Shown piece by piece: positions 28,449 through 42,679 of a DNA stretch of 64,000 nucleotides. The DNA comes from SAR324 cluster bacterium (GTDB lineage Bacteria; SAR324; XYD2-FULL-50-16; JAERRU01): NCBI GenBank assembly GCA_016735295.1, contig JAERRU010000009.1, positions 37,937-101,936 on the forward strand, read 5' to 3'. Below the pieces are notes generated by a model that saw only the letters and a program-made list of their open reading frames with translations, made no database searches and was not told the origin of the DNA. The position numbers and the translations under genes were made by a program. Within the stretch, counting starts at the first letter, position 1, and each line of letters begins with the position of its first letter.

Positions 28449-28500
28449 ATTGAAATTAAGAGTTATAAGAAACTATTTTTTTATTTTATACAAATAATCA

Positions 28501-31158
28501 ATGCATAGCAGCTACGACCCAGCGAAGATAGAACCTTTATTAGTAGAGCTTTGGGAAAAGAGGGAAATTTTCAATCCAGATAATCAAGATAATCAAGATA
28601 ATCAAGATAACCAAGCTAATTCAGCGAAAGAGCAAAGCTACGTGATGGTTATTCCACCACCAAATGTGACTGGTTCTTTGCATATAGGTCACGCTTTGGT
28701 TAATAGCATTCAAGATATTTTAATCAGATTTAACCGCATGAGCGGCCGGAAAACTTTATGGGTTCCAGGCACAGATCATGCGGGTATAGCCACCCAAATG
28801 ATGGTGGAAAAGGATTTGATGGAGAAAGAAAAAATCACTAAACATGATTTAGGGAGGGATAAATTTATTGAGAGAATTTGGGAGTGGAAACACCGCTATG
28901 AAGGAAGAATCAAGATTCAACTTAAAAGGCTTGGTTGCTCTTTGGATTGGTCTAGGGAAAGATTTACCCTAGATAAACAACTATCAAAATCGGTTAATAA
29001 GGCCTTTGTAGAATTTTTTAATCAAGGTCTAATCTATAAAGGCAAAAGATTGGTTAACTGGTGCCCTGTTGATAAAACCGCTTTATCCGATTTAGAAGTA
29101 GATCATATAGATTTAAAGGGCAAGATATATGAAATAAACTATCAACTCCAAGATGGAGGATATATAACTATTGCCACCACTCGGCCTGAAACTTTGCTTG
29201 GTGATGTGGCTTTGGTTGTGCATTCAGAAGATAAAAGATATCGCCAGTATATAGGAAAAAAGGTGATAATTCCTTTAGTTAATAGAGAGGTACCTATTAT
29301 TGCTGATGATAGTTGTGATCCTGAATTTGGTACAGGGGTGCTAAAAATCACACCAGCTCACGATTTTAATGATTTTGAAATAGGGGCAAGGCACAATTTA
29401 ACCCCGATTAATATTTTTACTGATGATGCTAAAATAAATGATGTCTACCCTCCCTTGCAGGGTTTAGAAAGATTTGCGGCGAGAAAAAAGATAGTTGATA
29501 TTTTACAAAAGAATGGACAATTAAAATCAATCAAAGAGCACCAGCACTCGGTGGCTCATTCGCAGAGAAAAAAAAGTATTATAGAGCCCAGATTATCTGA
29601 ACAGTGGTTTTTTGATGTCAAAAAATTTGCCAATCAAGCTCTCACAGAAATAGAGGCGGGCAAGATAAAGGTATATCCTGATAATCAACAAACAATTTTA
29701 AAAAATTGGTTAACGGGTATTAAAAGTTGGTGCATTTCTCGGCAATTGTGGTGGGGGCACAGGATTCCTGCTTATTGGTGCCAAGGATGTAAAAAATATT
29801 TTGCGTTATTGGAGGATCAGCTAAAAATTTGCCCTGATTGCCAAAGCTCCCAAGTAAAACAAGAAGATGACGTGCTTGATACTTGGTTTAGCTCAGGATT
29901 ATTTCCTTTTTCGGTTATGGGGTGGCCTGATAAAACGGAAGATTTAAAACTTTTCTATCCTAACAGTTCTTTAGTCACGGCGTACGATATTTTATTTTTT
30001 TGGGTCGCAAGAATGATTATGATGGGCATAGGATTAACAGGAAAAGTTCCCTTTGCTGAAGTTTATACTCATGGATTAGTGCGAGATGCTAAGGGAATCA
30101 AGATGTCAAAAACAACCGGCAATGTGATAAATCCTTTAGATGTGATTGAGCAGCATGGGGCAGACGCTTTACGCTTTGCTTTGTGTAGCAAAACTCATTT
30201 GGCTAATGATCTTAAATTATCTGATGATAATATAATAAAGAGCAGATTTTTTTTGAATAAGCTCTTTAATGCGGGTAAATTTGTTAAACATCATAACACG
30301 CAATTAGGGGCTAACGATTTGTTTGATGGAAAAGATTGTTCAAATATTTTAGAAAAATGGATTTTATACAAGCTATATGTGTTTGTTGAACAAACTAAAG
30401 CTAATATAGCTAAATACAGGTTTCACGATGTTGCACAAGGGATATATCATTTTAGCTGGCATGACTTTTGTGATACCTACCTAGAAATAACTAAAGTTTG
30501 GCTAACTAGCAAAAGAGGCGCTGCAGAAGATAATAGGCGCGCTCACCAGATATTAAATTTAGTATTTTCACAAATTTTAAGGGCTATTCATCCGATTACT
30601 CCTTTTTTGAGTGAATATCTATTTCGCGATATTTATCCTAATGAAGGATTTTTAGCGATTGCTAAATATTCTTTGGTTAAACCAGAATGGGATAATTTTG
30701 ATGTTACTGAGGCCAATGAATTTTTAGCAATTATTGGCCATATCAGAAGTATCAGAGGAGAAAATGATATACACCCTAAGCAGCTGGCTACCTTAAGAGT
30801 GCAAAACGCCCCAGCTGGATTAATTAAAATATTTTCTGATGAGCAGTTAGTGGCCTATGAACTAGCTAAGTTAGAAAAGATAGACTATTCATCCAAATTA
30901 ATAGAGCAAAAGGGATGGGCTGATTTTAGCTATAAAAACATTAATTTTCAACTTAGTTTATCCGCTTCGCTAGATCCTAAAGCTGAGCGAGCTAGGCTTG
31001 ATAAATTATTAGCTAAATTGGTGGATAAGCGTGATTTTTTGCAAAATAAATTGGCTAATCCCGCTTTTAAAGAGAGGGCACCCGCTAAATTGGTGCAAGA
31101 AACAATCGTTAAATTAGAACTAGTAAAAGCCGAATTAGCAAAACTAAATAGATCTTAA
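28501..31158 (+). CDS. valS: Valyl-tRNA synthetase
   Basis: PPPNVTGSLHIGHALVNSIQDILIRFNRM, WVPGTDHAGIATQ, IATTRPETLLGD, KMSKTTGNVINPLD. Confidence 0.96.
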   Translation: MHSSYDPAKIEPLLVELWEKREIFNPDNQDNQDNQDNQANSAKEQSYVMVIPPPNVTGSLHIGHALVNSIQDILIRFNRMSGRKTLWVPGTDHAGIATQMMVEKDLMEKEKITKHDLGRDKFIERIWEWKHRYEGRIKIQLKRLGCSLDWSRERFTLDKQLSKSVNKAFVEFFNQGLIYKGKRLVNWCPVDKTALSDLEVDHIDLKGKIYEINYQLQDGGYITIATTRPETLLGDVALVVHSEDKRYRQYIGKKVIIPLVNREVPIIADDSCDPEFGTGVLKITPAHDFNDFEIGARHNLTPINIFTDDAKINDVYPPLQGLERFAARKKIVDILQKNGQLKSIKEHQHSVAHSQRKKSIIEPRLSEQWFFDVKKFANQALTEIEAGKIKVYPDNQQTILKNWLTGIKSWCISRQLWWGHRIPAYWCQGCKKYFALLEDQLKICPDCQSSQVKQEDDVLDTWFSSGLFPFSVMGWPDKTEDLKLFYPNSSLVTAYDILFFWVARMIMMGIGLTGKVPFAEVYTHGLVRDAKGIKMSKTTGNVINPLDVIEQHGADALRFALCSKTHLANDLKLSDDNIIKSRFFLNKLFNAGKFVKHHNTQLGANDLFDGKDCSNILEKWILYKLYVFVEQTKANIAKYRFHDVAQGIYHFSWHDFCDTYLEITKVWLTSKRGAAEDNRRAHQILNLVFSQILRAIHPITPFLSEYLFRDIYPNEGFLAIAKYSLVKPEWDNFDVTEANEFLAIIGHIRSIRGENDIHPKQLATLRVQNAPAGLIKIFSDEQLVAYELAKLEKIDYSSKLIEQKGWADFSYKNINFQLSLSASLDPKAERARLDKLLAKLVDKRDFLQNKLANPAFKERAPAKLVQETIVKLELVKAELAKLNRS
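28579..28614 (+). repeat. 4 x 9-bp in-frame tandem repeat (gataatcaa) within valS, encoding DNQDNQDNQDNQ
   Basis: Three identical copies plus one with a single T-to-C change. Confidence 0.92.
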
Positions 31159-37722: not shown

Positions 37723-38178
37723 ATAAGGTTTAATGGCAATCGCGGCAGATTATAAATGGTGGCTATCGTCTATTATATATAGAACGATCATTTTAACTAC
37801 TATATATAATCACGAAAGATAATTCGCTCAAAGCCCCAAAAATAGCTTACTTAAATGAGGGAATTTATTATTTTAATAATTAGTTAAAACCCATTAAATA
37901 TTAAGTATCTTTAAATTGGGTAAAAAACTGTTATAAATATGAATAAATTAAAAACAATTTACAAAAAGATATCCCTTGATCAATAGGCCACCTAAATGCT
38001 TTATAGTATTGGATATGCCTTTTTAAAGAACATTGATAAGCACATTAAATATAAGTAAAAACAAGGAAAAATACTTTTTTTTAAAATAATACTTGACATG
38101 GATATAGTGTTATAGGATAAGGAGGCGTGCTGAATATTTTTGGATATCAAGCAAAAAATTTAATTTTTTTGAAAAAAC

Positions 38179-38242
38179 ACTTGCAATTAGTTTTTTGATG
38201 TTCTAGAGGTATGGCTATTGCGACTAAAGACTAGTTGCAAGT
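38179..38242. promoter_or_regulatory. 13-bp inverted repeat (one G/T-type mismatch) abutting the porin promoter
   Basis: acttgcaattagt (38179-38191) versus actagttgcaagt (38230-38242); 38-nt loop. Confidence 0.6.
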
Positions 38243-38247
38243 ATAAT
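38218..38247 (+). promoter_or_regulatory. Putative sigma70 promoter for porin: TTGCGA-N18-TATAAT
   Basis: -35 TTGCGA 38218-38223, perfect -10 TATAAT 38242-38247, ~68 bp before the porin ATG. Confidence 0.55.
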
Positions 38248-38314
38248 TTTTTTTGGCGGTTCATCTTGGTTGTCAAGGTGAATATTTTAAACAACTTAAT
38301 ATAATGGAGAAAGC

Positions 38315-39517
38315 ATGTTGAAAAGATTTAAATTAACAGCTGTCATAGCCGTTGCTTTGTCAATGGTTGCATCTGCTGGATTTGCTCAAATTGATACGTC
38401 TGGTCGTGTAAGAGCTTATTTTGGTACCACCGCAAATGTTGCAGCTGATGAAAGTGAAGAAGCTACAGTGGGATTTGATGGAAACGCGATAATTAGCTTT
38501 GGGTATGAACAACCAGCTTTTGGTGATTGGACAGCTCGTGCGGGTTTTGATACGTTACTTAGCTCTACCGAAACTAAAAGAGATGGTGACATATGTTTAA
38601 GCTTAAATAATGGCTCTTATGGAGTTAGATTTGGCCATATAAAATTCTTAGATTCAGTTGCTAGCATGGGCGGTTGGGAAACAAGCGGTGTTACTCTAAG
38701 TGAATCATTAGTTGATCAAGGTCAATTATCTGATCGTGGCCATAGCGTTGGCTTTTCGGTTAATGCAATTGACAACTTAGCTATCAAATACGGAATAGAA
38801 ACTAGTGCTAGAACAACAGTTTCAGCTCCTGATGCAGCAGCTAATGATATAACTGAAACTTATAATTATAGCACAGCTGCTTTTGGTCTTTCTGCTAAGT
38901 ATACCCTTGATGGCTTGATTGTTGGGGCGTCAATATACAATAAAGTGGATAAAGAAACCATTACCCCAAAAGTTGAAGCTGTAACTGCTGATCCTACTAC
39001 AACACCACCAGTTGTAGCGGTTGTAGGTGTGGACGAAGTCACTGAAGAAACAAAGAACATAAGAATAGCTTTAGGTGCGTCTTATGATTTGTCTTCAATG
39101 CAAGTTCCAGTTAACGTATGGTTAGGTTATTACCAAAACGGAACTGAAGTTGATGAGGTTAAAAGTGGATTTTCTACTATAGCAGTGGGCGGTAAATATT
39201 CTTTTACTGGCGGTAATGCTGGTCTTTCTTTGGAAATCTCTCCATTTGTAAAAGAAACATATGAAACTGCTGCTGTGCCTGCTTCTGGTACTGGTGCTGC
39301 TGCTGTGGCTGCTAAAGATGCTGAAACAGTAGATTACTTCAAGGCGGCTAGCTCTCAAACTATGGTTGCTTGGGTAAACTATAATTTATCTGATAACACC
39401 AAAGTGTTTGGTACTTTTGGCTCATATGTCAAAAAACAAGCACTAAAAGAAGATGGTGATGAGGCTAGTGATGTCACAAGCTCAAGTATAAGAATTGGTT
39501 TACGCCAAAACTTTTAA
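38315..39517 (+). CDS. Outer-membrane porin-like beta-barrel protein (paralogue 1)
   Basis: Signal peptide MLKRFKLTAVIAVALSMVASAGFAQ; IDTSGRVRAYFG start; alternating beta pattern ending SSIRIGLRQNF (terminal Phe). Confidence 0.85.
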   Translation: MLKRFKLTAVIAVALSMVASAGFAQIDTSGRVRAYFGTTANVAADESEEATVGFDGNAIISFGYEQPAFGDWTARAGFDTLLSSTETKRDGDICLSLNNGSYGVRFGHIKFLDSVASMGGWETSGVTLSESLVDQGQLSDRGHSVGFSVNAIDNLAIKYGIETSARTTVSAPDAAANDITETYNYSTAAFGLSAKYTLDGLIVGASIYNKVDKETITPKVEAVTADPTTTPPVVAVVGVDEVTEETKNIRIALGASYDLSSMQVPVNVWLGYYQNGTEVDEVKSGFSTIAVGGKYSFTGGNAGLSLEISPFVKETYETAAVPASGTGAAAVAAKDAETVDYFKAASSQTMVAWVNYNLSDNTKVFGTFGSYVKKQALKEDGDEASDVTSSSIRIGLRQNF

Positions 39518-39545
39518 TTTGATTAGTTAATTAGACTATCTTAGA

Positions 39546-39574
39546 ACCCGCCCTTTTGGGGCGGGTTTTTTTTT
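39546..39574 (+). terminator. Rho-independent terminator after porin 1
   Basis: acccgccc-ttttg-gggcgggt hairpin followed by a run of nine T including the last stem base. Confidence 0.92.
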
Positions 39575-39661
39575 GCAAAAATAAGCGAATTAATTTATAG
39601 AGCGATTAGTCTTAATAACACATTCCTCTGATATCATTTCTACTAAAAACTAAAATTCAAT

Positions 39662-40174
39662 ATGCACATAAAACTAACCTGCTTTATCATAGGCACTCTA
39701 TTAGTTGGTTTTATCGATCAAGCAAGCAAAAAAATAGCGATTAGTTATCTCTTATTAGGAGCACCTCCTATCGAAATGATACCAGGATTTATCGATTTTA
39801 AACTGGTATATAACAGCGGGGTATCATTTGGTTTTTTAAGCCATAATGGCTCAACTATAGGATGGATATTACTTTCTAGCGTCACTATATTTATTATCGC
39901 CTATTTAATTCAATTGGTGATAAGAAGAATATCTAAAATATCTAAACTAGGCTTAACATCCTTTTGTTTCATTATAGGTGGAGCCTTGGGCAATGGTGTA
40001 GATCGTATTTTCTATCAACAGGTCACCGATTTTATGATTTTTCGTATCGGGGATATAACATTGTTTGTCAATAATCTAGCTGATGATGCTATTAGTATTG
40101 GTTTAATATTATTAATATTTGAGGCTTTAATATTGAGGCGAAGCAAGAATAGTATAAAAGCCATTTTGAAATAA
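39662..40174 (+). CDS. lspA: Lipoprotein signal peptidase
   Basis: DQASKKIAISYLLLG, VYNSGVSFGFL, GGALGNGVDRIFYQQVTDFM, LFVNNLADDAISIG; both catalytic Asp regions present. Confidence 0.93.
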   Translation: MHIKLTCFIIGTLLVGFIDQASKKIAISYLLLGAPPIEMIPGFIDFKLVYNSGVSFGFLSHNGSTIGWILLSSVTIFIIAYLIQLVIRRISKISKLGLTSFCFIIGGALGNGVDRIFYQQVTDFMIFRIGDITLFVNNLADDAISIGLILLIFEALILRRSKNSIKAILK

Positions 40175-40324
40175 AGGTTGAAAGACTATTGCGATTATTT
40201 TCTTTATAGGATAAAGAATTAGCTATTAAAGTTAAAAACTATTTTAAATAAGTTTAAATCATGTATCAAATTATCTTAATAGTAAGGTGATCGTTTTTAT
40301 TAATATAATCATAATGGAGAAAGT

Positions 40325-41419
40325 ATGTTGAAAAAATTGCAACTAATAGCGGTCATGGTGGTCGTTTTGTCAATGCTCACGCCTGCCGTATTTTCCCAGA
40401 TCGATATGTCCGGCAGGGTAAGAATTTATTTTGACGATAGCTCAGCAACTAGCTCTGATGAAAGTAAATCAAATTCTACAAAAACTGAAGTAGACGCCGC
40501 GGGTAGCATTTTTTATCAACAACCAGCTTTTGCCGATTGGATAGCTTACGCCCGTTTTGGTACAGAAATTAATGATGAATCCATCATAGAATATGATGAT
40601 ATATATGCAGGTTTAAGCAACGGTTATTTTGGTGTTAGGTTTGGTTATATGGAATACCTAGATCCAGTTGCTGATATGGGAGGTTGGGAAACTGCTGGCA
40701 TTGATTTAAGTCAATCATTGGTTAATCAAGGTCAATTATCTAAGCGTACTTATAGCTCGGTCTTGTCGATTGATACTCATAGCCATATAGCTATTAAGCT
40801 TGGAGCAGGCATCAAGAATAATGTAAAAACTTCTGCACCTGATACGAATGGCGACACCACAAAAATAACAGAAAAAACATCAAATAGGGGTATGTCTATC
40901 AGATATAACAATTATGGGCTGGTACTGGGTGTATCACTATACGCTCAAGCGAATGATGAAATCTCTCCTGACGAGGCTACTATTAACAAAAATAACGTGA
41001 GAATGGCTATAGGTGCATCTTATGATTTTTCTGCGATGCAAGTTCCGCTCAATATATGGTATAGCTCTTATGTTGACGCGACCCAAATTGATGATGATAA
41101 AGGGGAAGGCTTTAATGTTGTGGCGATAGGCGGCAAATATTCTTTTACTGGTGGAGATATAGGTCTTTCTTATGAAAATTCTGAATTTAGAAAGTTAGAA
41201 TATATACCCAAAGATAAGACGTTTAAAAAATATCAGGAACCAGATGAATCACAAATTATGATAGTCACATGGGTGAACTATAATTTATCTAATAGAACTA
41301 AAGTGTTTGGCTCCTTGGGTTCTTACACCAAAAAATTTGAAAAGGAAGAAGCGGATGACGCCGATCCTAGCAATATTAAGGAGACTAGTATCAGAGTTGG
41401 TTTACGCCAAAACTTCTAA
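40325..41419 (+). CDS. Outer-membrane porin-like protein (paralogue 2)
   Basis: MLKKLQLIAVMVVVLSMLTPAVFSQIDMSGRVRIYF..., MGGWETAGIDLSQSLVNQGQLSKR..., TSIRVGLRQNF; clearly homologous to 38315-39517. Confidence 0.85.
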   Translation: MLKKLQLIAVMVVVLSMLTPAVFSQIDMSGRVRIYFDDSSATSSDESKSNSTKTEVDAAGSIFYQQPAFADWIAYARFGTEINDESIIEYDDIYAGLSNGYFGVRFGYMEYLDPVADMGGWETAGIDLSQSLVNQGQLSKRTYSSVLSIDTHSHIAIKLGAGIKNNVKTSAPDTNGDTTKITEKTSNRGMSIRYNNYGLVLGVSLYAQANDEISPDEATINKNNVRMAIGASYDFSAMQVPLNIWYSSYVDATQIDDDKGEGFNVVAIGGKYSFTGGDIGLSYENSEFRKLEYIPKDKTFKKYQEPDESQIMIVTWVNYNLSNRTKVFGSLGSYTKKFEKEEADDADPSNIKETSIRVGLRQNF

Positions 41420-41431
41420 TTTTAAAGGAAT

Positions 41432-41695
41432 TATCCATAATGACTCAACTATAGGATGAATATTGCTTTCTAGCACTGCCATATTTATCATTGCCTATTT
41501 AATTCAATTGGTGGTAAAAAGGACAGCTAAGATATTCACATTAGGAGTGGCATCATTAATTTTTTGTATGGGGATATTATATTGTTTGTGAATAATTTTG
41601 CTGATGGTATTATCATTATCGGTCTGATATTATTAATATTTGAGGCTTTAATATTGAAGAGGGATAAGAATAGCATAAAGGCTATTTTGAAATAA
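41432..41695 (+). pseudogene. lspA: Decayed duplicate of lspA (5' truncated, internal deletion, in-frame stop)
   Basis: Nucleotide similarity to 39840-40174: ataatgactcaactataggatgaatattgctttctagc..., gtttgtgaataattttgctgatggt..., ending ...agcataaaggctattttgaaataa. TGG to TGA stop and loss of the VDR segment. Confidence 0.88.
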
Positions 41696-41710
41696 AGGGT
41701 TAAAAAAGCT

Positions 41711-42679
41711 ATGTTAATTAATTGTAGTGTCTATCAGGAAGGAGTGTTTCTGAAGAGCATTGAAAAAGGCCAGATTAGTAAATTTTTAAAAAAGGATAAT
41801 TGCGTGGTGTGGGTCGCACTAAAAGATGCCGATACCAAAGAATTACTGGAGATGAAAAACCAATTTGATCTGCCAGATTTGGCAGTTGAAGATGCTCAGC
41901 ACGGCCATCAAGTCCCCAAAATTGAAGAATATAATAATTCACTATTTGCTATATTAAAGCTTCCTGAAATACAAGGTGATGATCTTTTAACCGGTGAGCT
42001 TAATATATTTTTGGGCAAAAATTATGTGCTATCGATAAGAAACAAGAGCACGCAGCACCTTTGGCATATTAGAGAAAAATTAGAAAATCACCCTCAATTA
42101 CTTGAATTAGGATCTGGAATAATATTTTATGCTCTCATTGATGGGGTTGTTGATCTTTATTTTCCTATTTTGTATGTATTGGAAAATGAGTTAGATCAGA
42201 TTGAAGAAAATATTTTTAATCAACAAGCCTCAAGGACTTTGATTATAAAGCTTTATAATCTAAAAAATAAAGTTACTCAATTAAGGCACGCTATCGCCCC
42301 TTTAATTGAGGATTTAGCCAAAATGCAGGGAAAAGAGCGTGCCCCTTTTTTATTGGATGGTTTGCAAAATTACTTTCGTGATGTGGGAGATCACCTAGAT
42401 CGCATGTTAACTTCGATTGATAGTATAAGGGAAACAGTTAATACGGTGATGCACGTTAATATTTCGCTAATAGCGGTAGAAGACAGTCAGATAAATAAAA
42501 GGCTCGCCGCTTGGGCAGGAATATTTGCGGTAGCAACAGCATTATTAGGTATTTGGGGGATGAATTTTGAAGCTATGCCCGAGTTAAGATGGCGTTGGGG
42601 CTATCCTTCGGCCATGTTAATTATCGTGGTGGTTTGTGGATATCTTTATTATAAATTCAAAAAATCGGGCTGGCTCTAA
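41711..42679 (+). CDS. corA: CorA-family Mg2+/Co2+ transporter
   Basis: C-terminal GIWGMNFEAMPELRWRWGYPSAMLIIVVVCGYLYYKFKKSGWL with the GMN signature and two terminal TMs. Confidence 0.92.
   Translation: MLINCSVYQEGVFLKSIEKGQISKFLKKDNCVVWVALKDADTKELLEMKNQFDLPDLAVEDAQHGHQVPKIEEYNNSLFAILKLPEIQGDDLLTGELNIFLGKNYVLSIRNKSTQHLWHIREKLENHPQLLELGSGIIFYALIDGVVDLYFPILYVLENELDQIEENIFNQQASRTLIIKLYNLKNKVTQLRHAIAPLIEDLAKMQGKERAPFLLDGLQNYFRDVGDHLDRMLTSIDSIRETVNTVMHVNISLIAVEDSQINKRLAAWAGIFAVATALLGIWGMNFEAMPELRWRWGYPSAMLIIVVVCGYLYYKFKKSGWL

Follow-up and report, generated by a model that had tools for sequence, protein, structure and literature searches.

A tandem porin–lspA duplication in which the second lspA probably decayed late

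Two porin genes alternate with an intact lspA gene and an lspA-like fragment in the window, the whole 64,000-nucleotide stretch of DNA analysed here. This arrangement raises two questions: whether porin and lspA were copied together, and when the second lspA (lspA2) ceased to function. The gene order across 38315-42679 is porin1, terminator, lspA, porin2, lspA remnant and corA, with the following features.

38315..39517, + strand: porin1, 400 aa, with a signal-like N-terminus and a C-terminal F; from its ORF and 43% identity to porin2
39543..39577, + strand: intrinsic terminator after porin1, a 12-pair stem (39543-39571) with 7 GC pairs and a T-tract; lost from copy 2
39662..40174, + strand: lspA, signal peptidase II, 170 aa, intact; PF01252 (E 8e-29), above the TIGR00077 cut-off
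40312..40324, + strand: leader ATAATGGAGAAAG/T before porin2, common to porin1 (38302-38314); from alignment
40325..41419, + strand: porin2, 364 aa, with a signal-like N-terminus and a C-terminal F; PF13609 Porin_4 (E 1.9e-10)
41423..41434, no strand: junction filler, about 12 nt in place of about 318 nt; from alignment
41433..41695, + strand: lspA2 remnant, lspA codons 60-100 and about 125-170, with TGA at W68 and a net 73-nt frameshifting deletion
41711..42679, + strand: corA, PF01544 (E 1e-52), starting 15 nt after the remnant stop

The original prediction had read the order from porin1 to the remnant as a segmental duplication of porin and lspA with differential decay. The self-alignment that it proposed reproduced this order and gave homology that is collinear over both the porin and the lspA segments. 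Porin1 (38301-39520) and porin2 (40311-41422) align in blocks of 70-92% DNA identity with indels between them, and the homology extends from the ATAATGGAGAAAG leader to slightly beyond the stop codon. Within lspA, 39841-39978 pairs with 41435-41572 (77% identity, E 4e-29) and 40049-40183 with 41570-41704 (82% identity, E 1.5e-36), in the same order. Collinear homology in one orientation is thus found across more than one gene. The porins are the sole paralogous ORF pair at E 1e-6 among the 56 ORFs of the window, so the duplication pattern is peculiar to this locus and well outside what chance would give; a search of the genome itself returned no further porin copy. A heavy-metal P-type ATPase gene lies upstream of the porin1 unit, and corA lies downstream, followed by aspS on the opposite strand. 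The upstream flanks of the two copies have diverged almost fully and the break point of the duplication is no longer visible. Misassembly is an unlikely source of the repeat, as the porins are just 43% identical, the flanks are distinct and everything lies within one contig.

Porin2 passes the Pfam Porin_4 cut-off (41.5 bits against 27). Porin1 alone gave no Pfam match up to E 0.1 and reached no NCBIfam model, and is assigned as a porin because of its similarity to porin2 (43% identity over 406 BLASTP columns, E 2e-102; 43-48% across alignments). The pair therefore resembles the Porin_4 family (PF13609) through the match of porin2 and through the signal-like N-terminus and C-terminal F of both proteins, but differs from it in that porin1 falls below every Pfam and NCBIfam model on its own sequence. 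The shared signal, leader and C-terminal strand that had been predicted are all present, but the sharing is wider than claimed, as the alignment also shows conservation inside the proteins, in several blocks that include VxxMGGWET and SLVxQGQLS. Both proteins carry an FAQ or FSQ junction. The difference in length comes mainly from two A/T/V/P-rich segments, at about residues 217-239 and 317-333 of porin1, that are missing in porin2. The predicted divergence in loops is seen as divergence in the alignment, with the structure model too poor for loops to be mapped: AlphaFold gave mostly strands for porin1 at a pLDDT of 35, and a sequence search of the PDB found no match.

The intact lspA passes the NCBI equivalog cut-off (TIGR00077) and retains the conserved Asp pair of signal peptidase II. 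Its D123 and D141 align with D124 and D143 of P. aeruginosa LspA (9EMZ/5DIR), the catalytic pair of that enzyme (PMC9360617). It is the only intact lspA found in a search of the genome, which is about 90% complete. Compared with known LspA (PF01252, TIGR00077; 5DIR, 9EMZ), the gene at 39662-40174 has the conserved motifs and the two aspartates in place, whereas the remnant has no open frame and has lost the 5' third and the first of the catalytic Asp residues.

The remnant matches the 3' part of lspA, as predicted, in two segments (41435-41556 and 41570-41695) that keep the order of the gene, and the search of the genome likewise recovers it as two pieces. It carries three lesions. About 318 nt have been lost from the interval that separates the stop codon of porin2 from codon 60 of lspA, with about 12 nt in their place; the lost sequence corresponds to the porin1-type 3' flank, the terminator, the intergenic region and lspA codons 1-59, which bears out the predicted loss of both the lspA 5' end and the terminator. 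The Trp68 codon has changed from TGG to TGA at window positions 41457-41459, at the stop that had been noted. Further on, 86 nt are replaced by 13 nt, a net loss of 73 nt that shifts the frame. The loss of the VDR region had been recognised correctly, but its size had been put slightly low, at 60-70 bp, and the deleted segment carries more than the VDR Asp: it removes D114 of the NxxDR motif and also D123, the catalytic Asp of VTDF. D141, the partner of D123, remains encoded. No ORF of at least 60 aa is present on the + strand of the remnant. With its frame disrupted and D123 lost, lspA2 is a pseudogene, and 41433-41695 should be listed as such in the genome annotation.

If a single event copied both genes, their synonymous divergence is predicted to be equal. 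From codon alignments, dS was 0.84 for the porins (95% bootstrap 0.66-1.09) and 0.71 for lspA against the remnant (95% bootstrap 0.39-1.32), the latter from only 81 comparable codons. The proportion of synonymous differences (pS) did not differ between the two pairs (Fisher p = 0.55). The duplicated segments thus appear to be of equal age within a wide interval, and together with the collinearity this supports the predicted segmental duplication with differential decay. Amino acid divergence is unequal, with a dN of 0.42 for the porins and 0.13 for the lspA pair. The dN/dS ratio of the porins, also proposed as a check, is 0.50 (0.37-0.67), and that of lspA and its remnant is 0.18 (0.08-0.36). 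The porins thus diverged under looser constraint than the lspA pair. Both look intact.

The repeat order and the equal dS lead us to infer a single event. An old porin duplication followed by a later lspA copy, or by gene conversion of the lspA segment with lspA1 as donor, might seem to account for the higher DNA identity of lspA and its remnant (77-83%, against 65-70% for the porins), but this difference sits in nonsynonymous sites, synonymous divergence is equal within error and the genes are ordered as one tandem copying would leave them. Although separate events of similar age are compatible with the wide dS interval that 81 codons allow, we regard two events as quite unlikely.

The branch of a copy broken at birth is expected to accumulate amino acid changes as fast as synonymous ones. 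In the remnant, dN is far below dS (Fisher p = 2e-7). We simulated decay at an AT-rich equilibrium with kappa of 1 or 3 and background omega of 0 or 0.1 (four settings, 200 runs each). Immediate decay gave a mean of 46-63 nonsynonymous differences against the 22 observed, and 0/200 runs in each of the four settings reached 22 or fewer. Neutral decay confined to about the final quarter of the branch gave 22-30 differences, the best fit, and decay over half the branch was marginal (P 0 to 0.31, depending on kappa and omega). The small number of amino acid changes relative to the simulations of immediate decay thus points to late decay. Neutral decay from the time of duplication onward is in keeping with the three lesions, as in any pseudogene, but is contradicted by these results and would become tenable only if the lspA segment had been copied long after the porins; we consider it very improbable. 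On the strength of the simulations, lspA2 probably remained a working gene over no less than roughly half of its existence, with roughly three quarters the likelier figure, and its breakdown came late. Differential decay, as predicted, thus stands, but with the refinement that the decay of lspA2 was late rather than gradual from the duplication onward.

The 19 residue differences between lspA and the remnant were also polarised against the LspA of 19 relatives, which sided with lspA at 10 positions and with the remnant at 5, the other 4 being ties. At sites conserved in the LspA of relatives, the remnant carries the replacements V74T, D142G and S145I. The changed sites as a group are no less conserved than the unchanged ones (p = 0.63), which makes this last point weak evidence.

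It is also very improbable that the remnant is maintained because it has a function today, as a short membrane peptide (the last TM segment) or as a corA leader or promoter region: a 44-codon open stretch at its 3' end is 80% identical to LspA and just 15 nt separate it from corA, but the frame of this stretch has no ATG start, the conserved D142 and S145 are changed, RNA structure is no better than in shuffles (z -0.2) and promoter-like matches are no more frequent than in shuffles.

We therefore consider it highly likely that porin and lspA were duplicated in tandem once, that both copies were long functional and that lspA2 was lost late. An ancestral porin–lspA unit between the heavy-metal P-type ATPase gene and corA would have been duplicated in one event, and both copies would have functioned through most of the period that followed. 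The porins would have drifted in sequence and length under moderate constraint into two different-looking outer-membrane porins. Redundant with lspA1, lspA2 would finally have been lost through the 5' deletion, the out-of-frame internal deletion and the nonsense mutation, in any order, and the 5' deletion would also have taken the terminator of porin2. That extra LspA dosage or a second substrate range, useful for instance in the presence of an LspA-inhibiting antibiotic, long preserved lspA2, and that the gene disappeared once this pressure ended, seems unlikely.

Searches of genomes from the order, of 51 further genomes from the class and of two public collections, one of genome contigs and one of viral contigs, found no relative of the porin. 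As no porin-carrying relative was found, the duplication is not datable by phylogeny, and neither a pre-duplication state nor an intact lspA2 was seen in any relative. The lspA locus was read in 19 relatives from the order and class; in these, lspA adjoins other genes, often hisS-like or UbiD-like (called by eye from translations), and no adjacent porin of the porin1/porin2 kind was seen. The lspA described here is not beside the hisS-like or UbiD-like genes seen in many of these relatives and so occupies a different neighbourhood in this lineage. The 16S rRNA is about 80% identical to its closest matches in the plasmid collection, which are alphaproteobacterial, the genome comprises 1.52 Mb in 42 contigs and the GC content of the window is 34%. 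The host is a deep, small-genome, AT-rich lineage with alphaproteobacteria-like 16S rRNA.

More than one lspA is also found in Myxococcus xanthus, in which lspA1 and lspA2 are in tandem, and in Streptomyces with two lspA copies (PMC8689077). The locus described here resembles these in having more than one copy, close together, but differs in that the second lspA came with a porin and is broken. A literature search for a porin–lspA duplication of this arrangement returned no matching case. The locus is an ordinary gene duplication with differential decay and changes no general view. What is new is the timing, as the simulations indicate that selection probably maintained lspA2 over most of its existence, with the breakdown coming late. 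It is also a neat and compact example of two genes in a duplicated segment that serve as a mutual clock: their equal synonymous divergence is in line with a single event, and their unequal amino acid divergence points to a redundant lspA that was long functional.

The porin1 terminator folds at -22.8 kcal/mol (z -4.4). No terminator was found between porin2 and corA, and RNA folding of the junction and the remnant gave nothing above shuffles. As porin2 has no terminator before corA, read-through is possible, and the sequence suggests that, after the loss of the terminator, porin2 transcripts may run on into corA. An Rfam search of the window returned tRNAs only. Before porin1 there is an AT-rich, gene-free stretch of about 590 bases (37723-38314), in which a T-rich run comes after a small hairpin (38218-38240). 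Further upstream, about 8.5 kb from lspA, an ORF of 886 aa (28498-31155; PF00133) encodes a class I tRNA synthetase, either IleRS or ValRS.
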